A stretch of 64,000 nucleotides of DNA. Source: a bacterium D16-56. GTDB taxonomy: Bacteria; Bacillota; Clostridia; Lachnospirales; Lachnospiraceae. The notes beneath the pieces were generated by a model. It did not search any database, was not told where the DNA came from, and worked only from the letters and a program-made list of their open reading frames with translations. Position numbers and translations under genes: made by a program. Where the stretch lies: the NCBI GenBank assembly GCA_003611875.1, contig RAYY01000015.1, forward strand, positions 1-64,000, written 5' to 3'. The first letter of the stretch is position 1; each line of letters begins with the position of its first letter. Below are positions 9,284 through 26,212 of this stretch, piece after piece.

Positions 9284-10159
9284 TCATACTTTTCCTACCC
9301 AAGACAAAATTGTTTCTGGTGGTAATTCCAAAAACTTTGCGATCTTATCAATGGGTTCCCCACCATTAAACATATTGGATGCAGTCTTCATCGCCCGCTT
9401 CAAATCGCCTTCCTCGCGGCCTTCCTCGCGGCCTTCCTCGCGGCCTTCCTTGCGGCCTTCCTCGCGGCCTTCTTCGCGGGCATCCCGCCTTTCATCCGCC
9501 AGTTTGATTGCCCACGTCATATAACTCACCTTCCATTCGTCATTGTTATTGATAGTCGTCACCTTCTTTTCCAGTGTCTGGGTATAGGGGTTTTTCGCTT
9601 CTCCTTTCATGATGTAACGCATCAGGATCTTAAACTCATCGCTGACATTTCCCTTATGCCCGTCTGCATTCACAAAAATCTTCCAGGCGTCATCCCCCAG
9701 CGGCTGATATGAACCGTCACTTAGACGATAATATTCCCCACAGCGGTAAATATACTCGCCATGGCCGAAGGGGTCAAACGTGCAGACGAAAATCACAAGG
9801 CTCTTTTTGAGATTGATGTAATCCTCCCCTTTAGCAAGGATGTTCAGATCGATGATTCCCTGATAATACCTAGATCTCCTAGGTAAGTTCCTGTTCCTCC
9901 CCGTCTGCATCTCCACGTCATAGACCGTCCGCTCCTCGTCCTCGATGTACACGTCCATCCGGATCGATTTCGCATTGAGCGTCAGAGTTACAGTCTTTTG
10001 CCTCTCCGGGTACTCGATCTTGCGGATCTTTGTCCCGAGGATGGTTTCCAGGAACGGTTTGCAGCATTCTGGATCTGCCATCACGGTTCCAAACATCATG
10101 TCATCCTGAATGGTGACTGGCTTAAACCGTTCTAAAAATATCTTTTCTTTTTCTGTCAT
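9284..10159 (-). CDS. Rpn-family PD-(D/E)XK nuclease / transposase-like protein
   Basis: 291 residues. The N-terminal two-thirds is the PD-(D/E)XK fold of recombination-promoting nucleases: DDMMFGTVMADPECCKPFLE, then RMDVYIEDEERTVYDVEMQ where D and the ExQ pair form the putative active site, and RSRYYQGIIDLNIL. Residues about 225-250 are a repeat of the tetrapeptide GREE encoded by a 12-bp minisatellite. The C-terminus (EPIDKIAKFLELPPETILSW) is a small helical domain. Relatives in enterobacteria promote RecA-independent recombination. A second gene of this kind is at 62409-63401. Confidence 0.85.
   Translation of the reverse strand: MTEKEKIFLERFKPVTIQDDMMFGTVMADPECCKPFLETILGTKIRKIEYPERQKTVTLTLNAKSIRMDVYIEDEERTVYDVEMQTGRNRNLPRRSRYYQGIIDLNILAKGEDYINLKKSLVIFVCTFDPFGHGEYIYRCGEYYRLSDGSYQPLGDDAWKIFVNADGHKGNVSDEFKILMRYIMKGEAKNPYTQTLEKKVTTINNNDEWKVSYMTWAIKLADERRDAREEGREEGRKEGREEGREEGREEGDLKRAMKTASNMFNGGEPIDKIAKFLELPPETILSWVGKV
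9409..9480. repeat. 12-bp minisatellite inside the Rpn-like gene
   Basis: Six tandem copies of CTTCCTCGCGGC (plus strand), at 9409, 9421, 9433, 9445, 9457 and 9469; the fourth has T for C and the last is degenerate. Each unit adds exactly four residues (EEGR) so copy-number change keeps the frame. Confidence 0.9.
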
Positions 10160-13688: not shown

Positions 13689-14054
13689 TCATGGTTCTGT
13701 CTGTGATGAAAACGCCAGAAACACCAGAAAATCCTTTCCCCGGTTTGCAATCGAATGCATTTCTCCTGCAGGAATATAGATCGCATCTCCGTCCCGGATT
13801 TCCCGAGTTTCCTCTCCGATCGTCATGGCGCCGCATCCGGAAATAATATAGTAGACCTCCTCATGATCACCATGGGCATGAGCTTCATAAGCCTTCCCCT
13901 CCTGAAGCATGGCATATGCGACATACAGCATTCCTTCCATGCAGCAATGCTCTTGTTTTGGGTCAAAGTCTGCCTGTCCTTTCAATAATTTATAATCAAT
14001 ACCAAAATCATGCACAATCGACGGCAATGCTTCTCTCCAATTCCTGATTACCAT
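13689..14054 (-). CDS. Small cupin-domain protein
   Basis: 121 residues. A single conserved double-stranded beta-helix: EAHAHGDHEEVYYIISGCGAM holds the HxH...E metal motif (HAH, E about residues 58-66), and IYIPAGEMHSIAN holds the second-motif His. It starts inside the end of the peptidase gene (7-base overlap), so the two are translationally coupled. Likely a metal-dependent isomerase, lyase or sensor acting on the substrate of this operon. Which one cannot be told from the fold. Confidence 0.8.
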   Translation of the reverse strand: MVIRNWREALPSIVHDFGIDYKLLKGQADFDPKQEHCCMEGMLYVAYAMLQEGKAYEAHAHGDHEEVYYIISGCGAMTIGEETREIRDGDAIYIPAGEMHSIANRGKDFLVFLAFSSQTEP

Positions 14055-15211
14055 ATTGTCCTGTCTCCTTCTCCTCTGATCACAAACTCTTCCTTCGAAA
14101 GTCCGGTCAGAATCTCATATCCGTCTTCTGTCACTAACACCTCGTCCTCGATTCTCACCCCGCCGGCCCCCGGCACATAGATCCCCGGCTCAATAGTAAT
14201 TACCATGTTCTTCTGAAGCACCATATCCGTACCTGGCACAATCGACGGCCATTCCTGGCTGTTTAAGCCTATACTATGTCCCAGATAGGGGTTAAACCAA
14301 GGCTTTAAAGGATGGTTCTCCAGCACCCTTTCTGCACATGCCATCAGCTCTGCAAAGCTCACTCCCGGACGAACGGCAGCAATACATTCCTGCTCGATTT
14401 TCCAAACCAGCTCATACATCTTTATCAGCCGTGAATCGGCTTTTTCTATGGCAAAGCTTCTGGTCCAGTCCGAGGCATAATGCTCCACCACTGCTCCGAA
14501 ATCCAGCAGCACCACATCCCCCGGCCGGATCCTTCGCTCTCCCGGCAGATTGATGGTTCTCGCTGCATTTTCGCCGGACAATACCTTCATGGTAAAGGGA
14601 ACGCCCTCTGAGCCTTTTTTTCTCATAAAATATTCCAGCTCTGCCACGATTTCCATCTCGCTTTTCCCTGGGCAGAGAATGGTTTTTGCATACTCCATGG
14701 CTTCCCTTGCAACCTGGGCTGATTTCCTCATTGCCTGCAGCTCCTCCTTGGATTTGACCAGTCTGGCCCGGCGCAGAGACGATGAAATATCCTGCCAGTG
14801 TATGGATCTCCCCCTTCTCCTCAAAGCATCTTCCAGCTGCAGATATAATTCCAGCTCCAGACGTTCCTTCTCAAACCCCAGCTCCAAACGGTGTGAACAT
14901 CCGTCCTCCCTCAAGCTGTCCAGCAGCTGCACAATGGTTTCTGCCGGCTCTCCTGCTGTCCTTGGATAGGGAATCAATATCACTTTTTCGTCGTATTCCT
15001 GTTCTTCTACCAACGGCTTCCAGTTTTCCGGAAACACAAACCAGGTCGTCTCCTTTGTCATCAAAACCACATTCAGTCCAATCTGAGCCGGTCGTCTGGC
15101 TGTTGTTGAAAAACCGATGGAATAATAAATATTATCCGGCGCCGACAGCAGCACCGGTACAGACAGCCGGCCAAACAAAGATTCATACGTTCTTTTCATC
15201 CCAATCCACAT
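14048..15211 (-). CDS. M24B family Xaa-Pro-type metallopeptidase / creatinase-like
   Basis: 387 residues. An N-terminal creatinase-like domain (to about 150) is followed by a complete pita-bread domain with all five metal ligands visible: Asp in VVLLDFGA, Asp in ASDWTRSF, His in YLGHSIGLN, Glu in ITIEPGIY and Glu in VRIEDEVLV. Members cleave Xaa-Pro peptides or, as creatinase and DMSP lyase DddP, other small C-N or C-S compounds. Being inside a taurine/nitrate-type importer operon, a small-molecule substrate is as likely as a peptide. The start at 15211 has GGGAAGGG six bases upstream; an internal Met four codons later is an alternative. Confidence 0.85.
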   Translation of the reverse strand: MWIGMKRTYESLFGRLSVPVLLSAPDNIYYSIGFSTTARRPAQIGLNVVLMTKETTWFVFPENWKPLVEEQEYDEKVILIPYPRTAGEPAETIVQLLDSLREDGCSHRLELGFEKERLELELYLQLEDALRRRGRSIHWQDISSSLRRARLVKSKEELQAMRKSAQVAREAMEYAKTILCPGKSEMEIVAELEYFMRKKGSEGVPFTMKVLSGENAARTINLPGERRIRPGDVVLLDFGAVVEHYASDWTRSFAIEKADSRLIKMYELVWKIEQECIAAVRPGVSFAELMACAERVLENHPLKPWFNPYLGHSIGLNSQEWPSIVPGTDMVLQKNMVITIEPGIYVPGAGGVRIEDEVLVTEDGYEILTGLSKEEFVIRGEGDRTIW

Positions 15212-15259: not shown

Positions 15260-16021
15260 CTACCACCACCGGATCAGGTCCGTCACCTGCTCCCGCAGCC
15301 GGACAAACTCCGGAGCGGCAATATCCCGCGGACGCGGCAGCCGATTGGCCAGCCTCTCCTTCACTGTGGTCGGCTTGTTGGTCAGAATCATAATATTTTC
15401 TCCCAGATACACCGCTTCTTCAATGTTGTGGGTAATAAAAATGACCGTGGTCCCCGTCATCTGCCACAGCCGGACCAGCTCATCCTCCAGCTTAAAGCGA
15501 AGCTCAATATCAAGCTGTCCATAGGGCTCGTCCATCAAAAGCAGCTCTGGCTCTGTGGCAAAGGCCCGTGCAATGGATACCCGCTGCAACATACTGGCCG
15601 AGAGCTGTTTGGGATAGTACTTCCGGTATTTTGTCAGGCCCACAATCTCCAGATACCGGTCTGTCAGCTCCTTCTTTTCCTTTTTCGGCGTATGGCGGAT
15701 ATCCAGCCCAAACGCCACATTCTGCTCCACCGTCAGCCAGGGCATGGTGGAATTTCCCTGAAAAATATAGGCAATGTGATCTTTTTTCGGATCTGCCGGA
15801 TGCCCGTCCAGAAGGATTTCCCCGGAAGTGACATCATAGATTTTGGTCAGGCTGTTTAAAAAAGTGGTTTTTCCGCAGCCGGTAGGCCCTACCACACAGA
15901 GTAGGTCTCCCTTTTCCACATCGAAGGAAATATCATCCAGTACCAAAAGATCTCCGAATTTCTTTGTCAAATGGTTGACCTTTACTTTAATTTGACGGTT
16001 TGACGCTTCTCCTGCTCCCAT
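15260..16021 (-). CDS. ABC importer ATPase subunit 2 (nitrate/sulfonate/taurine type)
   Basis: 253 residues from ATG 16021 (MGAGEASNRQIKVKVN), chosen because AAGGAGG is correctly spaced; an upstream GTG is too close. Walker A GPTGCGKTT is intact, Walker B LLLMDEPYGQLD is intact, and the switch His is present (FITHNIEEA). The signature motif, however, is LSASMLQR instead of LSGGxxQR. Its partner at 16037-16804 has the opposite pattern. SsuB/TauB-type subunits normally work as homodimers; these two look like a heterodimer with one degenerate site. It follows its partner by 15 bases. Confidence 0.9.
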   Translation of the reverse strand: MGAGEASNRQIKVKVNHLTKKFGDLLVLDDISFDVEKGDLLCVVGPTGCGKTTFLNSLTKIYDVTSGEILLDGHPADPKKDHIAYIFQGNSTMPWLTVEQNVAFGLDIRHTPKKEKKELTDRYLEIVGLTKYRKYYPKQLSASMLQRVSIARAFATEPELLLMDEPYGQLDIELRFKLEDELVRLWQMTGTTVIFITHNIEEAVYLGENIMILTNKPTTVKERLANRLPRPRDIAAPEFVRLREQVTDLIRWW

Positions 16022-16036
16022 TTTCGGCACACCTCC

Positions 16037-16804
16037 TTACAATGTTTTATCCACAATATCCGTAATTTCCTTCCGCAGGGCCAAAAATTCCGGGGCAGTA
16101 TATTTGCGGGGACGAGGCAGATCGATCACATATTCCTTTTTCACTGTGGCAGGACAGTTGGAGAGGACAATGATCCGGTCTGCCAGATAGATGGCTTCCT
16201 CAATGTTATTGGTAACAAAGATAACCGTCCTTTTCTCTGACTGCCAGATCCGCTGCAGCTCCTCCTGCATCAGATAGCGTGTCTGGGCATCCAATGCCCC
16301 AAACGGTTCGTCCATCAGCATGACCTTTGGTTCAATGCAGTAAGCGCGTGCGATTCCCACCCGCTGCCGCATGCCTCCTGAAAGCTTAACCGGAAATGTA
16401 TTTTCAAACCCCTGAAGTCCCACCAGGTCGATATACTTTTGAGCCTGTTCCCGGCGTTCCTGCTTTGGTACACCTGCCATTTTCAAGCCATATTCCACAT
16501 TGCCCATAACCGTCAGCCAGGGAAACAGGGTAATATTCTGAAACACCACGCCACGCTCCGGTCCCGGCTCAGTGACCAATTCCCCTCCGACCAGAATATT
16601 TCCTTCATCCGGCAGCTCAAAGCCAGCAATCAAGTTGATAATTGTCGTCTTCCCGCACTGGCCCGGCCCGAACAGACAAATAAACTCATTTTCCTGTGCC
16701 TCCAGGTTAAAATCCCGGATAACCTGATGAGTCCCTTCCGGAACCTGAAAGCTTTTATTGACCCTTTTGCATGATATCAGCTGTCGCTTTTGTTCCATCG
16801 GCAT
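16037..16804 (-). CDS. ABC importer ATPase subunit 1 (nitrate/sulfonate/taurine type)
   Basis: 255 residues. The signature LSGGMRQRVGIARAY and Walker B VMLMDEPFGALD are canonical. Two conserved positions are altered: Walker A reads GPGQCGKTT, with Gln where GxxGxGKT requires Gly, and the switch His is replaced by Asn (FVTNNIEEA; codon AAT confirmed on the reverse strand). The gene overlaps the preceding permease by 28 bases. AAAGGTGG lies ten bases before ATG 16804. It should pair with the next ATPase to energise the two permeases. Confidence 0.9.
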   Translation of the reverse strand: MPMEQKRQLISCKRVNKSFQVPEGTHQVIRDFNLEAQENEFICLFGPGQCGKTTIINLIAGFELPDEGNILVGGELVTEPGPERGVVFQNITLFPWLTVMGNVEYGLKMAGVPKQERREQAQKYIDLVGLQGFENTFPVKLSGGMRQRVGIARAYCIEPKVMLMDEPFGALDAQTRYLMQEELQRIWQSEKRTVIFVTNNIEEAIYLADRIIVLSNCPATVKKEYVIDLPRPRKYTAPEFLALRKEITDIVDKTL

Positions 16805-17559
16805 AGTCTTGTTTCCACCTTTCTGAAAATCATAGAGAGCAGCATACCGACGAGTCCAATTGCCAGAATGCCAGTCATAATCTGAACCATGTCATTATTA
16901 TTCATGCCTGCTATGATGATCCATCCAAGCCCTTCTGAGGAACGAACCATCTCTGCTGCCAGCACGGTTGCCCAACAGCTTGATAGCGCCACCTGCAGCC
17001 CTGCAAAGACAGAAGGAACCGACGCGGGAAGCACGATCGTAAACAACAGGCTGCTTTTTCTCGCTCCCAGCATCTGTGCCGCAAGGATATAGTCCTTATC
17101 CACATTTTTGGCTCCGCTCCAGGCATTTAAGGTTACATTACAAAAAGAGGCCAGAAAGATCAGAAAAATCTTGGCATCCTCTCCCAGGCCGATCCAGATG
17201 ATTGAGATCGGGATCCAGGCAATCGGCGGAATCGGACGGATAATCCGAAACAAGGGAGAGAACACAGCCTCCACAAGGCGGTTCCATCCCATGGCAAGCC
17301 CCAGGATCACCCCTGCCGCTGCCCCCAAAAGATACCCGGCCATTACCCGGATCAGGCTGTACAGAATATGTACAATCATGGTACGGGAACCGATTGTGCC
17401 TCCAAACATGGTTTCCAGAAACATCCAGATAACCGGAACCGGTCCTGGCATCAGTCTGCCCAGCTCCCCCTTCACTCCCAGATGCCACAGACACAAAAAT
17501 GCGAAAATGGAAATAACGGCACAGATCGGCTCCATGATTGTTCTTTGCTTTTTCTTCAT
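16777..17559 (-). CDS. ABC importer permease 2 (SsuC/TauC-like)
   Basis: 260 residues, six predicted helices, BPD_transp_1 fold. The cytoplasmic EAA loop is visible as AAQMLGARKSSLLFTIVLP followed by ASVPSVFAGLQ. It overlaps the first permease by four bases (ATGA) and the first ATPase by 28. Two different permeases suggest a heterodimeric pore, unlike the single TauC/SsuC gene of most taurine and sulfonate systems. Confidence 0.9.
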   Translation of the reverse strand: MKKKQRTIMEPICAVISIFAFLCLWHLGVKGELGRLMPGPVPVIWMFLETMFGGTIGSRTMIVHILYSLIRVMAGYLLGAAAGVILGLAMGWNRLVEAVFSPLFRIIRPIPPIAWIPISIIWIGLGEDAKIFLIFLASFCNVTLNAWSGAKNVDKDYILAAQMLGARKSSLLFTIVLPASVPSVFAGLQVALSSCWATVLAAEMVRSSEGLGWIIIAGMNNNDMVQIMTGILAIGLVGMLLSMIFRKVETRLCRWNKSDS

Positions 17560-18344
17560 TGTGCGTTCATCCCCTTTGCCACCATAGTCTCAACCTTTTG
17601 CAGGATCAGATCCAGAATCAGTCCCACTACCCCAATCATCAGCATCCCGATAATCACCAGATCCGGACGGGAAATATAACGTGCCTGCTGGATCATAAAG
17701 CCAAGCCCCTTGCTGGCTGCCAGCATTTCCGCTGCCACCAGAGCCATCCAGCTTCCTCCCAGGGCCGTTCGAAGGCCAGTAAAAATCATGGGCGTTGCCG
17801 TGGGAATAGCGATCTTAATCAGCTTTTGCCAGCCGCTGGCTCCAAATACATCCCCTACCCACATATGCAGCTCATCGGTCTGCCGGATTCCGGTATAGGT
17901 ATTCACAATGCAGGCCACAAAGGAATTTACAAAAATCACCATTGCCTTTGCCTCAATGCCAATACCAAAGATCAGAATAAACATGGGAGTCCATGCCAGT
18001 CCCGGAACAGGGCGGATCAAGTCAAACACCGGACGGATCAGCCAGTCGCACCACTTATTCCAGGCCATGGCAATTCCTAACGGAATCCCCAGCACTGCGC
18101 CTATACTGTATCCAAGGAGGCATACCTTCAAGCTTTCCTGCAGATGCTGCCCCAGAGTTGCCCCGTCTGGTTTTTTCTCCGTCAGCTTTACCACGAAGGT
18201 CTGAAAGGTCTTCCCTACTCCCGGAAAGACAGAGTTCTTCGTCAGCTTCATCACATCGATCAGAATATACCAGACCAGCAGGACCGCTGCCACAGAAGCA
18301 CAGGATATCAACAGATACTTATATTTTTTCCAGAAATTCTTCAT
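17556..18344 (-). CDS. ABC importer permease 1 (SsuC/TauC-like)
   Basis: 262 residues, six helices. The coupling loop reads FGASGWQKLIKIAIP, then TATPMIFTGLR, with SWMALVAAEM after it, typical of the nitrate/taurine group. The N-terminus begins MKNFWKKYKYLLISC before the first helix. It follows the binding-protein gene after about 110 bases and overlaps the second permease gene by ATGA. The product spans the cytoplasmic membrane and forms half of the translocation path. Confidence 0.9.
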   Translation of the reverse strand: MKNFWKKYKYLLISCASVAAVLLVWYILIDVMKLTKNSVFPGVGKTFQTFVVKLTEKKPDGATLGQHLQESLKVCLLGYSIGAVLGIPLGIAMAWNKWCDWLIRPVFDLIRPVPGLAWTPMFILIFGIGIEAKAMVIFVNSFVACIVNTYTGIRQTDELHMWVGDVFGASGWQKLIKIAIPTATPMIFTGLRTALGGSWMALVAAEMLAASKGLGFMIQQARYISRPDLVIIGMLMIGVVGLILDLILQKVETMVAKGMNAQ

Positions 18345-19685: not shown

Positions 19686-20326
19686 TCAGTCCCTACACAA
19701 TACCAGTCCCTCCAGCTTTTTATTTATCATAGTAGCTTCCACATAGTCCCAGATGGATCCTGCTGCATCAAGATATGTCCTATCTTCCGTTCTCTGATAA
19801 CGGTCTATAAATGCGGTGATCCCCTCTGCCTGTACCCACCAGATTTTACTCCTGTTTAGTCTCCTGTTTTTTGTCTGCCAGATAGTACATTCCGCCTCGT
19901 ACCGGATCCAAGCCTTCCTGATATACCTGTTCCATCATCCTGCTTACAATTGATTCGATTTTCTGGTAAAGCTCCTTATCCCCCAGAAATTCTGCTGCCT
20001 GCATCATCAGGTAAGAGCATTCGCTGTCATGTCCAAAATTCACTTCTCCGTCCAAGCACGTCCCATCCTTTAGCACATAGGGCAAGATCCTGATCCTCTT
20101 TTCTTCCAAACGTCGCAAAAGCCTGTGAAAGTGTCCAAAGAATCCTGCAGTTCAAAACTACGGATTTGGGACTCTTCTGATCTGGTTTTCCCTCCCCGTC
20201 TATTCTTCCATAAAATCCTCCATGAACAGGATCTGGCATATATTCTCTCCAGAAAGGAAGAATACCGGTTTGAAGATTTTCCTCCATTCTTTTCCTCAGA
20301 TTCCAAAGCAATATTTTGTCATTCAT
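19686..20326 (-). pseudogene. AGE-family epimerase, internally deleted
   Basis: The N-terminal block (LQTGILPFWREYMPDP, VHGGFYGRIDGEGK, VLNCRILWTLSQAF) is in one frame from ATG 20326. Another frame then gives RIRILPYVLKDG and NFGHDSECSYLMMQAAEFLGD, which align with the middle of N-acylglucosamine 2-epimerases after a gap of roughly 150 residues. A third frame carries KIWWVQAEGITAFIDRYQRT and the truncated end (IWDYVEAT). So at least one large deletion and two frameshifts. The parent enzyme epimerises sugars such as N-acetylmannosamine, cellobiose or mannose. It overlaps the upstream cupin gene by four bases, as an operon member would. Confidence 0.75.
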
Positions 20327-20730
20327 CTGCTGTTCTTCTTCCTGAGCCTGGTCTGCAAGTCCACAAAAGCCCGATCAGAATTATCGGACGATACATCTGC
20401 ATTTTCAATAATTACAACCTTTGTCCCCGGAGCAGTTACATGCGTGTGCCAAATTCCCTTGGGTATCCGGTACATTTTTCCTTGTTCCAGCTCCACAGCC
20501 GTGATATCTCCAGGGCCATCTTCCTTGTCGTCTGCTGCATAAAGCGTAAAGCTTCCTTCCAGCAGCAGAAAAACCTCATCGGAGGTATTATGCCTCTGCA
20601 TTTCATTGATCTGATCCAGATGGAATCTTGGAGTATCATTCAGCAGCGCCACTCTCCACCCTTCAAAAAACACCAGCGGATGATAGCCTTCCTCTGAACA
20701 GCCTTTCACCTCAATCAATTCCTTGTCCAT
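20323..20730 (-). CDS. Cupin-domain protein, sugar-epimerase/isomerase partner
   Basis: 135 residues from ATG 20730, behind AGAGGAG. Cupin motif 1: MQRHNTSDEVFLLLEGSFTL (H...E); motif 2: YRIPKGIWHTHVTAPGT (two His). WRVALLNDTPRFH near the N-terminus is typical of cupins that sit with AGE or ManD-type genes, as I recall. It lies directly before the AGE pseudogene and downstream of the RpiR regulator. Probably a metal-binding auxiliary or anomerase-like protein of sugar-acid catabolism. With its AGE partner dead, its role is uncertain. Confidence 0.75.
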   Translation of the reverse strand: MDKELIEVKGCSEEGYHPLVFFEGWRVALLNDTPRFHLDQINEMQRHNTSDEVFLLLEGSFTLYAADDKEDGPGDITAVELEQGKMYRIPKGIWHTHVTAPGTKVVIIENADVSSDNSDRAFVDLQTRLRKKNSR

Positions 20731-20970
20731 CGCCTCACTCCTCTTTGCCGTTGTATCGGATTCTCTGCTTCCTTCTTGTTTCACTCAAAAGGACTTTTTT
20801 GTTCCAGCCGTTTCTCTTCCTGTTCTCTGGAGAATTGAACAAAATATCTTGATTACACAAGTCCTTTTTTATAAAATACACCAATATTCCCCACAAGTAA
20901 ACAAAAAATGCAAATCCTTGCAACCGTTTCTACTTCTATTTTGCAAAAACTGCAAATTTTTCGAAAAAGC

Positions 20971-21074: not shown

Positions 21075-21962
21075 TCACTTGATCCTGCTGGACAGCACTG
21101 CCTTTTTACATGCCTCGATCTTTTCCTGCTGCATGGGACGTCTCAGAATCTCTGCCTGAATTGCTCCGATGATCGCCAGTTCGCACATGCTTGCCAGGTG
21201 GAGATACTGCAGATCATCCGGAATATTGTAGCTGTAAAATAATTTTAGGTTCGCCAGCTTTCCCATGGTGGAAGCCGGATTGGCTGTAATGGCAATCACG
21301 GTTGCTTTGTTATGCTTTGCAGTCGTCATTGCCTCTATCACGGATCTCACCTCACCGCTGTAGGCAATCCCGATTGCCACGTCTCCTTTGCCCAGAGTAC
21401 TGGCTGCCAGGTTCATATCTACCTGACCGCTGACCATCTGGCTTAAAAGATTGATTCTCAAAAGCAACTGCTGGGCAAACAATGCGGAGATGGAACCGCC
21501 GCTCTGGCCGAAAAACACAATATTCTTTGCATTGATGATTGCATCCACCACCCGTATCAGGGTCTTCCCGTCCAGTGTCCGCATGGTATCGGAAACCACG
21601 TTCTGGAAGGTGTTCATCAGCTTTTGTATCACCACCTGGATCGTGTCGCTTTTCTGGATCGGCACATCCATAGCCAGGGGGGAGGCCAGATTTTTTTCCA
21701 TATATACCTTCAGTTCACTGAAGCCTTTATAGGATAATGCCTGGCAGAATCTGGTTATGGTAGACGGAACTGTCCCTGTCTTTTGTGCCATTGTGGTAAT
21801 CGAATAATGAATCACTGCCTCCCGATGGTTCAGAATATAATTCGCAATTCGTTTCTGCGCCTTAGAAAGTGAGGCATACTGCATTTTGATTCTCCCTACA
21901 TATTCAATTTCCTCCGAAAAATCTTCCTCTTTTTTGATTTCATCCTTTTTGATTTTATCCAT
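21075..21962 (-). CDS. RpiR/MurR family regulator (HTH + SIS)
   Basis: 295 residues. The N-terminal HTH_6 (YASLSKAQKRIANYILNHRE, then TMAQKTGTVPSTITRFCQAL) binds DNA. The C-terminal SIS domain (KNIVFFGQSGGSISALFAQQ; GIAYSGEVRSVIEAMTTAKH) binds a phosphosugar or related ligand. An acidic/basic run (KKDEIKKEEDF) precedes the HTH. It is divergent to the ManD-like gene, with 220 bases between, and upstream of the cupin/AGE pair, so it most likely regulates both sides in response to a sugar-acid intermediate. Confidence 0.9.
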   Translation of the reverse strand: MDKIKKDEIKKEEDFSEEIEYVGRIKMQYASLSKAQKRIANYILNHREAVIHYSITTMAQKTGTVPSTITRFCQALSYKGFSELKVYMEKNLASPLAMDVPIQKSDTIQVVIQKLMNTFQNVVSDTMRTLDGKTLIRVVDAIINAKNIVFFGQSGGSISALFAQQLLLRINLLSQMVSGQVDMNLAASTLGKGDVAIGIAYSGEVRSVIEAMTTAKHNKATVIAITANPASTMGKLANLKLFYSYNIPDDLQYLHLASMCELAIIGAIQAEILRRPMQQEKIEACKKAVLSSRIK

Positions 21963-22185: not shown

Positions 22186-23373
22186 ATGAAAATAATACAG
22201 GTAAAAACAATCCTTACCTCTCCGAACCAGAACTATCTCTTTGTTAAGGCTGTCACGGATTCCGGAATCTACGGGGTCGGGGATGCCTCTCTCAACGGAA
22301 GGGAAAAAGCGGTTGCTGATCTGATCGACACCTACCTTTCTCCTCTCCTGATCGGAAGAGATCCAGAACAAATCGAGGATTTCTGGCAGCTTGTGTACAG
22401 GGGAAGCTACTGGAGGGGCGGAAACATTATTATGAGCGCCCTGTGCGGCATTGACATGGCTCTGTGGGATATCCTTGGGAAATCTGCCGGTAAACCTCTC
22501 TATGCTTTACTGGGCGGAAAGGTCCGAAGTAAGGTATTGTGCTATTCCCATGTACTGGGAAAAAGCCAGGAAGATAAGATCGCCCAGGCAGCAGAATATG
22601 TACGGGAACGCGGTTTGAAAGTAATTCGTTTGAGAGCCGGTCTTCCTGCTGCCAACGGCACTTTTGGCGTCACCCAAAACCAGGACAGCCCTAAGATTGA
22701 GTCCTGGAATCCAGAAGATGAGATTATGAATACCGTGGAGTATTTTATTCGGGTTCGGGAGGCTGTCGGTAAAAAAATAGGGATCATCTATGATCTGCAT
22801 GAGCGCTTCAGCCCGGATCAGGCAGTGCGGATCCTCCGCCGGATCGAGGATTATGATCCTTTCTTTATCGAAGATCCGGTGGCTCCGGATTGTGCGGACA
22901 GCCTGCGCTATGTGCGTGAAAAAACGATTGCTCCGATTGCCTTCGGAGAGCTCTATAAAAGCCGCTGGGAATGTCTTCCGGCTATCACCGGACGGTGGAT
23001 TGATTTCCTGCGCTGCGACGTTATCCGTATCGGCGGTATCACGGAAGCCCGCAAGATTGCCGCTTTGGCGGAAACCTATGATATTAAAACAGCATGGCAT
23101 GGTCCTAATGACGTCTCACCCATTACCCATGCCGTAAACTGGCATCTGAATGTCTCAGAATATAATTTCGGCATTCAGGAAGACGGCACTACAGACGGAC
23201 TTATCCACCAGGTAATCTCCGGCGGTCCTGTCTATCAGGACGGGTACCTGATTATGGAGGAACGGCCGGGAATCGGATGTGATATTGACGAGGATGCTGC
23301 CGCACAATATCCGTTTCGCAAGGCATATATCCCTGTATGCAGACAGGAGGACGGAAGCCTGAACAACTGGTAG
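22186..23373 (+). CDS. ManD-like sugar-acid dehydratase (enolase superfamily)
   Basis: 395 residues. The metal and catalytic residues can be counted: Asp203 and His205 in IYDLHERF, Glu229 in FFIEDP and Glu255 in AFGELY. The spacing 2, 26 and 26 is the same as in characterised D-mannonate dehydratases (Asp210, His212, Glu236, Glu262). Also typical are GVGDASLNGRE, YRGSYWRGG and TAWHGPNDVSPITHAVNWHL. The reaction is Mg-dependent dehydration of D-mannonate or D-gluconate to 2-keto-3-deoxygluconate; the family ranges from fast to nearly inactive members. It stands alone, divergent from the RpiR gene, and is followed by a terminator. Confidence 0.88.
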   Translation: MKIIQVKTILTSPNQNYLFVKAVTDSGIYGVGDASLNGREKAVADLIDTYLSPLLIGRDPEQIEDFWQLVYRGSYWRGGNIIMSALCGIDMALWDILGKSAGKPLYALLGGKVRSKVLCYSHVLGKSQEDKIAQAAEYVRERGLKVIRLRAGLPAANGTFGVTQNQDSPKIESWNPEDEIMNTVEYFIRVREAVGKKIGIIYDLHERFSPDQAVRILRRIEDYDPFFIEDPVAPDCADSLRYVREKTIAPIAFGELYKSRWECLPAITGRWIDFLRCDVIRIGGITEARKIAALAETYDIKTAWHGPNDVSPITHAVNWHLNVSEYNFGIQEDGTTDGLIHQVISGGPVYQDGYLIMEERPGIGCDIDEDAAAQYPFRKAYIPVCRQEDGSLNNW

Positions 23374-24864: not shown

Positions 24865-25093
24865 CAGATCAGTTCATTTGTGATGCGGATGACAAAATTA
24901 CACGTTGCTGCAAAGGACAAAAAATGTTATAATTTTACAAAGATACCTGTTGTTGAGCCTTTTATTTTACGATTTATACTCACGAGCATACTTATTTGCC
25001 GAATGATTGGGGATTGTGCTGAATTGCGCTGGAATCATGAAGGGATATTGGCAAATCATTTCGCTTGCGGGTAAATCGATCAAGGAGAAAACC

Positions 25094-26212
25094 ATGAGAA
25101 AATCACAAAGGAGGATAACTACGATCCTGCTGTCATCCATGTTGGCAGCGTCAGCCTGTCTCACATCAGCTGCATTCTATCAGGAACCGGAAAGTAAAAA
25201 AGGAATTTTAATCTCCGGCCAGGAATCGAACATGCTGCAGGACATTGTCAACTTAGGATGCAAGCAGGCCATCTGCAACCTGGCCTCTTACCAGAACGTT
25301 AATTCCTTTGATCCTCTTGCACAGATGTGCAAATCCAACGGAATCACCATGACCATGATTCTGCTGAACAATTTCGGAGGAAACCCGGATCTGCTCCCGG
25401 TGTCCAGTCCGGTGGAAGGAACAGGAAACTATGCTTTCAATGTAAGTACCGCGGCTGGGGAAGCAGCAGTCAGAGCCTATGCCAGGAACGTGGCCAGCCA
25501 CTACTCCAACACAGTATCCAACTGGGTGATTGGCAACGAGGTCAATGATGCCGTGACGTGGGATTACAGCGGAGTTATGGACATGGATGAACATGCCGCC
25601 CAATATGCCAAGGCGTTCCGTATTTTCTATGAAGAAATAAAAAAGGCCAATTCCGAGGCACGGGTCTTCATTCCCTTTGATATGCGGTGGAATGCCAAAT
25701 ATGCCGACGGTTCAGCCCGCTATACGGTAAAAGAATATCTGCCCAAGCTTAATGAACACTTAAAAGATTTGGATTATGGCATTGCCTGGCACGCTTATCC
25801 GGTACACTTCTTTACCAAACCGGAGTTTTTGGATGATGACGGGATTTCCTTTGACCTGGATACTCCCAACATCAACCTCAAGAACATGGATGTTCTGACC
25901 AGCTATCTGCAGACGCCGGAGATGCTGTCCCCCAGCGGTCAGGTTCGTCATCTGATTCTGACAGAGCAGGGCTTTACCTCAGCCTGCGAAAACGGTGAGG
26001 AAAGACAGGCTGAAGCTATCAGGCAGGCTTATGAGATTGTCAAGGCCAATCCATATATTGAAGGCTTCTATCTGAGCCGCCAGGTAGACGCACAATCCCA
26101 GGAAAACGCCGGAGGAGCCTTCGGACTTTGGACCAGAAACCCGAATGCCTCCAAGGATGAAACTCCTCAGTCAAAGAAGCTAGCCTGGAGTGTATATCAG
26201 TCCTTGAACTAA
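25094..26212 (+). CDS. Secreted DUF5722-like glycoside hydrolase
   Basis: 372 residues from ATG 25094 behind AAGGAGA. An N-terminal signal (MRKSQRRITTILLSSMLAAS, then ACLTSAA) predicts export. The fold is a clan-A-like TIM barrel: NWVIGNEVND at about residue 150 has the N-E pair of the acid/base Glu, and LILTEQGFTS at about residue 300 gives the second Glu as nucleophile. HAYP between them is also typical. DUF5722 proteins are thought to be glycosidases; the substrate is not known to me. It is monocistronic. Confidence 0.75.
   Translation: MRKSQRRITTILLSSMLAASACLTSAAFYQEPESKKGILISGQESNMLQDIVNLGCKQAICNLASYQNVNSFDPLAQMCKSNGITMTMILLNNFGGNPDLLPVSSPVEGTGNYAFNVSTAAGEAAVRAYARNVASHYSNTVSNWVIGNEVNDAVTWDYSGVMDMDEHAAQYAKAFRIFYEEIKKANSEARVFIPFDMRWNAKYADGSARYTVKEYLPKLNEHLKDLDYGIAWHAYPVHFFTKPEFLDDDGISFDLDTPNINLKNMDVLTSYLQTPEMLSPSGQVRHLILTEQGFTSACENGEERQAEAIRQAYEIVKANPYIEGFYLSRQVDAQSQENAGGAFGLWTRNPNASKDETPQSKKLAWSVYQSLN

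Follow-up and report, generated by a model that had tools for sequence, protein, structure and literature searches.

Complementary motif changes in the paired ATPases of a taurine/nitrate-type importer operon from a Lachnospiraceae bacterium

The composite ATP site of an ABC transporter is formed by the Walker and H-loop motifs of one ATPase together with the signature of the other. In the sulfonate importers TauABC and SsuABC there is one permease gene and one ATPase gene, and the sites are symmetric. The available part of a review (PMC7756269) gives the same site geometry, with the Walker and H-loop motifs of one half meeting the signature of the other, and describes degenerate exporters in which the non-canonical residues of one half face the non-canonical signature of the other and the catalytic Glu is commonly changed; every human degenerate site has an altered signature, and ABCG5/G8 also has changes in Walker A. 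Heterodimeric exporters described, in the portions of the literature available, as having a degenerate site include TM287/288, TAP, BmrCD and CFTR, and loss of the catalytic Walker B Glu is a hallmark of degenerate sites according to the accessible section of PMC7544095.

Degenerate sites are also described in importers. RbsA and NupO of B. subtilis are type II importers in which one fused ATPase polypeptide holds one canonical and one degenerate site, the second Walker A being without its Lys and NupO being also without the Walker B acids (from the accessible section of PMC11466899). IrtAB is an importer of exporter fold whose paper, as far as its text was available, uses the term degenerate site, and the available text of the DppABCDF paper names an alignment with degenerate TM288 (PMC12136057). 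The closest solved relatives of the two ATPases reported here belong to NrtBCD and CmpBCD, the cyanobacterial nitrate and bicarbonate importers (PDB 8wm7, 8w9m, 9u9z, 9ua1), which are of the same subfamily and also use two different ATPase subunits in one importer. However CmpD, NrtD and CmpC, the three chains compared, are canonical at the motif positions discussed below (GHSGCGKS, SGGM and TH), and the NrtC and CmpC chains have 665–690 residues, against 253–255 for our two ATPases.

Here we describe an importer operon in a stretch of 64,000 nucleotides (the window) from Lachnospiraceae bacterium D16-56, in which the two ATPases, A1 and A2, are encoded by distinct genes, divided by a stop codon, and not as one fused polypeptide. 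Like RbsA and NupO the importer would have one canonical and one degenerate ATP site, but A1 keeps its Walker A Lys, with Gln, Arg, His or Leu in place of a Gly across the family, and unlike many degenerate exporters the importer keeps both catalytic Glu residues. An earlier note on this DNA had set asymmetric heterodimeric exporters against homodimeric SsuB/TauB importers; in this subfamily NrtCD and CmpCD were already known to be heteromeric, which leaves the asymmetry as the unusual trait, and RbsA and NupO had already shown that importers can have a degenerate site. Importers with a degenerate site are therefore known in fused form, and judged from sequence the two-gene variant with its glutamates kept would be new. 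In the literature searched, with subscription papers mostly outside it, no description of this importer family was found.

The operon and its relation to known families

The transporter genes lie on the minus strand of the window in the order substrate-binding protein (SBP), P2, P1, A1 and A2, followed by genes for an M24 hydrolase, a cupin and an SDR protein. P2 overlaps the start of P1, and P1 overlaps the start of A1. The genes of the region are listed below, where L009–L013 are the loci that form a clade with the window.

21075..21962, minus strand: RpiR-type regulator, matched in four of the five near loci
20323..20784, minus strand: second cupin, upstream of the operon, in the window and L009–L013
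18455..19606, minus strand: SBP of the NMT1/SsuA type (Pfam NMT1_2 at 38.5 bits, cut-off 24.7; NMT1 at 33.1, cut-off 20.5)
17556..18344, minus strand: permease P2 (Pfam BPD_transp_1; closest NCBIfam families TauC, SaoP and NtrB, all under curated cut-offs)
16777..17559, minus strand: permease P1 (Pfam BPD_transp_1; closest NCBIfam families SaoP, TauC and NtrB, under cut-offs)
16037..16804, minus strand: ATPase A1, 255 amino acids (Pfam ABC_tran; closest NCBIfam families SaoA, TauB and NtrCD, under curated cut-offs)
15260..16021, minus strand: ATPase A2, 253 amino acids (Pfam ABC_tran; closest NCBIfam families SaoA and TauB, under curated cut-offs)
14048..15211, minus strand: M24 (creatinase/prolidase-like) hydrolase, adjoining the transporter in the window and L009–L013
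13689..14054, minus strand: cupin, in the window and L009–L013
12829..13656, minus strand: SDR oxidoreductase, in the window and L009–L013 (start set by eye; the listed open reading frame reaches 13836, overlapping the cupin)

For A2 the ATG at 16021 is a better start than the GTG at 16030; a GGAGGT (16031–16036) lies 9 bases upstream of this ATG and abuts the alternative GTG. Neither the M24 hydrolase nor the cupin at 13689..14054 has a match in the 16 loci L014–L029, and a 33% relative of the SDR oxidoreductase is also found in L028. Further from the operon, a gene for a ManD-like enolase-superfamily dehydratase (22186–23373, plus strand, below cut-offs) diverges from the RpiR gene; this gene lies close to the operon in the window and also in L013, and L014–L029 contain one further match. 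The window also holds genes for a DUF5722 protein (25007–26212, plus strand) and, downstream of the operon, a PD-(D/E)XK transposase-family protein (9284–10159, minus strand).

Several features place the operon in the NitT/TauT superfamily. The NMT1/SsuA-like SBP is above the Pfam gathering score, though under the curated cut-off of the NCBIfam SsuA family, the BPD_transp_1 permeases are closest to TauC, NtrB and SsuC (SaoP being closer than TauC for P1), and among ABC ATPases A1 and A2 are closest to TauB and NtrCD, with SaoA first in NCBIfam. Against SaoA, TauB and NtrCD respectively, A1 scores 265, 238 and 227 bits and A2 scores 196, 194 and 176, where the cut-offs are 360, 357 and 291.8. 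SaoABP (NF040729, NF040733) is the best NCBIfam match of both ATPases and of P1, which reaches 156 bits against a cut-off of 295. As the curated cut-offs are missed, plain orthology to TauB, NtrCD or SaoA was rejected. TauABC and SsuABC have the SBP, permease and ATPase families in common with the operon, many relatives of which lie beside sulfatase or sulfonate genes. The locus would encode a fully heteromeric binding-protein-dependent ABC importer made up of an SBP, two permeases and two ATPases.

The motifs that distinguish A1 from A2 are at the following positions.

16646..16669, minus strand: A1 Walker A GPGQCGKT (G46-P-G-Q49-C-G-K52-T; codon of Q49 at 16658–16660)
16370..16384, minus strand: A1 signature LSGGM, intact (L141-S-G-G-M)
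16208..16210, minus strand: A1 switch position N199 (T198-N199-N)
15866..15889, minus strand: A2 Walker A GPTGCGKT, intact (G45-P-T-G48-C-G-K51-T)
15590..15604, minus strand: A2 signature LSASM (L140-S-A-S-M)
15428..15430, minus strand: A2 switch His198, intact (T197-H198-N)

The earlier note had given A1 a Gln in Walker A and an Asn for the switch His beside a normal LSGG, and A2 a normal Walker A and switch His beside an LSAS signature, and both descriptions are exact. Neither protein has lost its Walker A Lys, Q-loop Gln, Walker B Asp or catalytic Glu, and the Walker A of A1 therefore still matches the loose pattern GxxxxGK[ST].

Conservation and pairing of A1 and A2

A contig scan with A1 gave 22 loci, 21 of them orthologous (L009–L029, 60–87% identity); L030, at 30%, is unrelated and was left out. 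All 21 have the five genes in the same order and, with the window, read GPGQ[CS]GK, LSGG and TNN in A1 and GPTGCGKTT, LS[ASMT]S and TH in A2. In 398 genomes of the phylum, A1 as query found 8 places in 7 genomes, window included (E ≤ 1e-82). In 391 genomes of the class an A2 profile found 7 places, spread over 5 genomes (E ≤ 1.1e-115); the match ranking next, at 6.1e-79, belongs to an A1 partner, and ATPases other than A1 and A2 begin at 2.8e-78. The class scan alone was run in both directions, and the A1 profile returned the identical 7 places from the same 391 genomes (E ≤ 8.3e-126; next match 2.7e-97). The first set of 35 operons comprises the window and 21, 7 and 6 operons from the contig, phylum and class scans, with repeats of the window left out.

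When 397 genomes of the family were scanned with the A2 profile (E ≤ 1e-100), 40 places were found, window included, in a total of 21 genomes. The second set contains 35 operons and one lone A2 (L175), L159–L161 having been dropped as repeats of L021, L011 and L023. The genome scans scored the best six candidates per genome. The total sample is 70 operons (the window and 69 others) with 71 A2 proteins, which are not independent, as there are near-copies (L010/L011, L014/L018) and overlapping flanks (L174/L183, L181/L187). For comparison we used 36 other paralogues, which are the closest ATPases outside the A1 and A2 clades from the scans and the window's own genome, picked by score and not by motif.

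Position 4 of the A1 Walker A is never Gly in the 70 operons, being Q in 54, R in 9, H in 6 and L in 1 (32 Q, 2 H and 1 R in the first set; 22 Q, 8 R, 4 H and 1 L in the second). Nor is His found at the A1 switch position in any of the 70, where 69 have N and one has S (34 N and 1 S, then 35/35 N). The A1 signature is S-G-G-M in 70/70 (35/35 in each set). In A2 the Walker A Gly at position 4 and the switch His are both kept in 71/71 proteins (35/35 and 36/36), the signature reads S-x-S with its second Gly replaced by Ser in 71/71 (35/35 and 36/36), and the D-loop, GQLD in the window, has Q in every copy (again 35/35 and 36/36), where 35 of the 36 other paralogues have Ala. The catalytic Glu is kept in 35 + 35 A1 and 35 + 36 A2 proteins, and no copy of either has lost the Walker A Lys, the Q-loop or the signature Ser. 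All 36 other paralogues have G, K, S, G, G, E and H at Walker A position 4, the Lys, the signature S-G-G, the Glu and the switch, so the substitutions, present in 70/70 operons, are more than chance.

The A1 D-loop is less uniform, with A in 30 operons, H in 21, Q in 18 and K in 1 (21 A, 10 Q and 4 H in the first set; 17 H, 9 A, 8 Q and 1 K in the second). It is thus changed to H, Q or K in 40 of the 70, the window not being among them, and the change falls at the site that otherwise stays intact.

The earlier note had named orthologous operons with intact motifs in both ATPases as the case that would count against it, and there are 0 among the 70. Random decay of a failing transporter in one genome has next to no probability and was ruled out, as nothing was found in its favour, the same changes are common to 70/70 operons, the genes are open and the motifs of the opposite site are nearly invariant.

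The two genes are found together. A2 is present at 8/8 A1 places of the phylum scan, and in the family scan A1 adjoins A2 at 38 of 39 A2 places other than the window's own, the exception (L175) lying at a contig end. Wherever contigs allowed the test, the contig, phylum, class and family scans contained no lone A1 or A2, which bears out the expectation that the pair is conserved in other genomes. Five loci (L040–L044) have the gene order A2-SBP-P2-P1-A1, and the pairing survives this rearrangement. It is very improbable that A1 and A2 form two separate homodimers, each powering a transporter or one acting as a spare or shared ATPase: they are separate genes, and homodimeric ATPases are usual in TauB/SsuB-like importers, but either homodimer would carry two half-altered sites, and neither the lack of lone copies nor the linkage through changed gene order fits such an arrangement.

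A1 and A2 each form a single clade in a tree of 106 ATPases (support 100/99 and 100/100); their sister relationship is less well supported (88/85), and a long stem, of 1.82 changes per column, leads to A2. A FastTree run on 70 A1, 71 A2 and 36 paralogues again groups A1, A2 and A1+A2 as clades, and each of the two subtrees contains the window clade as well as the clade of rearranged gene order. One old duplication followed by complementary change would fit these trees best as the origin of the pair. Correlation of distance matrices was rejected as a measure of co-evolution, since A1-A2 (r = 0.924), A2-P2 (0.942) and all operon gene pairs (0.82–0.94) behave alike and the values are uninformative.

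At the scan thresholds the distribution is patchy, with 7/398 phylum, 5/391 class and 21/397 family genomes positive. The operons with the A1/A2 pattern come from about ten families of one phylum, and horizontal transfer is a possible route. The A2 gene occurs at at least six places in one genome (G1018) and at three in each of four others (G918, G967, G982 and G562); three to six copies in single genomes suggests expansion of the family. Two close relatives (L025 and L026) are in metagenome-assembled genomes labelled Planctomycetaceae and Spirochaetaceae, reflecting either transfer or a binning error. Plasmid-borne spread was considered and rejected, A2 having no match at 1e-60 among 72,556 plasmid records.

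Two composite sites predicted to be unequal

In a head-to-tail dimer, site I, made up of the A1 Walker A and switch with the A2 signature and D-loop, would be degenerate, and site II, made up of the A2 Walker A and switch with the A1 signature, would be canonical. That all the defects fall in the same composite site, as had been claimed, is supported by this geometry and by a matched change in the A1 Walker A and A2 signature. Summed over the Walker A, signature and switch columns, entropy is 7.32 bits at the predicted degenerate site and 0.44 at the other. The D-loops depart from this pattern: that of A1, which should face the intact site, has more entropy per column than that of A2 (0.436 vs 0.295 bits). 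With four D-loop columns added per site the values become about 8.5 and 2.2 bits, a smaller contrast that is still present. Where the A1 Walker A ends in T (49 operons) or S (1), residue 5 of the A2 signature is M in 50/50, and where it ends in V (20 operons) that residue is other than M in 19/20. In the A2 subtree these 20 operons form one clade; in the A1 subtree 19 of them do, L196 falling outside, so the match is a concordance and not many independent events.

An AlphaFold2 model in which A1 and A2 are covalently joined, with the intervening stop read as a residue, a link that biases towards a pair, has a pLDDT of 84.3 and a pTM of 0.68. In Foldseek it matches M. tuberculosis OppABCD (8j5s_D, TM 0.77 by query, rmsd 8.1), DppABCD (8wda_D, TM 0.72, rmsd 6.3) and also tandem ATPases of other kinds (8s7v_K, 0.69). 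Modelling of the dimer, a check that had been proposed, therefore gives weak support to the pair: the joined model resembles fused importer ATPase pairs, but the link was forced and other kinds of tandem ATPases match too.

We consider it likely that the operon encodes a taurine/nitrate-type importer that is obligately heterodimeric, has a consensus site and a degenerate one, and uses one ATP at site II per cycle. The motifs, their fixation, the genomic pairing and the unequal variability of the sites are read directly from the sequences. From these we infer that A1 and A2, after an old duplication, would associate physically as an obligate head-to-tail heterodimer, in which site I most likely binds nucleotide and, either staying closed or hydrolysing poorly, serves as a hinge. 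Each import cycle would then most likely be driven by hydrolysis of one ATP at site II.

The Glu kept in A1 is the main argument against a dead site I. Since no copy has lost the catalytic Glu, the Walker A Lys, the Q-loop or the signature Ser, site I may still be able to hydrolyse, and in the available part of PMC7756269 MRP1 retained wild-type-like transport with Gln or Asn for the H-loop His of its working site, so slow hydrolysis at site I could occur. These points favour a heterodimer in which both sites hydrolyse, two ATPs are spent per cycle and the site I changes tune rate or nucleotide affinity; however we regard it as rather unlikely, as Walker A, switch and signature are altered together and variable at one site but nearly constant at the other, with the second signature Gly being Ser in 71/71 A2 and the switch His missing in 70/70 A1. 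The complementary conserved non-canonical motifs of the degenerate-site class are found in 70/70 operons, but loss of the catalytic Glu is not, and because the Glu is kept the importer would work like the degenerate exporters without being filed in their class.

The degenerate site could also have taken on a new role, gating uptake by binding a regulatory nucleotide such as ADP or AMP, or some other ligand. Regulation through ATPases is known in NrtCD and CmpCD, the Walker A Lys is kept though the position-4 Gly has become Q, R, H or L, and site I varies yet is never lost, but the sequence has no feature indicating a particular ligand and we consider this improbable. This idea overlaps the heterodimer with a single hydrolysing site, which leaves the site I ligand unspecified.

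Neighbouring genes, substrates and the importer lineage

The flanks of the operons suggest what may be transported. In the first set 24 of 35 loci have a sulfatase (16), sulfatase-maturase-like (7), TauE/SafE-like (7) or Xsc-like (5, one doubtful) gene, compared with 1/20 control loci of other paralogues, where the query genes came from the family's own loci and the controls were unmatched by phylogeny. In the second set 23/36 loci (two locus pairs overlap) have a sulfatase, maturase-like or TauE-like gene. The Sulfatase and TauE families were confirmed on examples, and the maturase of L015 is above its cut-off. Such genes, Xsc-like ones included, are in 0/6 flanks of the window clade, which in 6/6 carries the M24 hydrolase, cupin and SDR genes instead.

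The rearranged loci L040–L044 include an Xsc-like gene in four of five and a linked aminotransferase in two of five (e.g. L043:1378-10267). Next to the operon, L043 encodes alanine dehydrogenase, an aminotransferase and sulfoacetaldehyde acetyltransferase (Xsc), above curated cut-offs; in L040 the Xsc piece is cut by the locus edge and below cut-off, and L042 and L044 have taurine degradation genes by similarity. We propose the transporter of L040–L044 as a candidate anaerobic taurine importer; the available part of PMC3569383 describes a taurine pathway in Desulfotomaculum ruminis with Desru_0589 and Desru_0590. Taurine degradation genes were found in 0/6 loci of the window clade, and an Xsc match in L080, which by eye looks like an acetolactate synthase, was dropped as taurine evidence. 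Split transketolase halves and an RpiB-like isomerase lie beside the operon in L078 (2179-4450), with similar open reading frames, by eye, in L076 (3259-5065); we take these genes to resemble the sulfo-transketolase route. LarA-like proteins, far below any curated cut-off, are encoded beside two other relatives (L077:4801-6270 and L079:2164-3660).

More tentatively, the family could be a separate lineage of single-stroke importers with a permanent nucleotide hinge, spending one ATP per molecule and spread patchily through Bacillota by way of swapped binding proteins. In such a lineage the Walker A Gln, Arg or His would occupy the space of the missing glycine, and the asymmetric ATPase pair would have been retained throughout while importing organosulfur and perhaps also sugar-acid-like substrates. 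The usual assumption for this importer class is twice that cost, so one ATP per imported molecule would, if true, halve it. How many ATPs are needed per imported substrate, and why there are two sites, is an open question that symmetric models answer only through engineered mutants. A natural, small five-gene importer with one site changed yet its catalytic Glu kept would suit the question of ATPs per import, and since each site belongs to a different protein, the two could be told apart cleanly by mutating A1 or A2. In genomes of anaerobic bacteria the family may in addition mark the uptake of organosulfur compounds.
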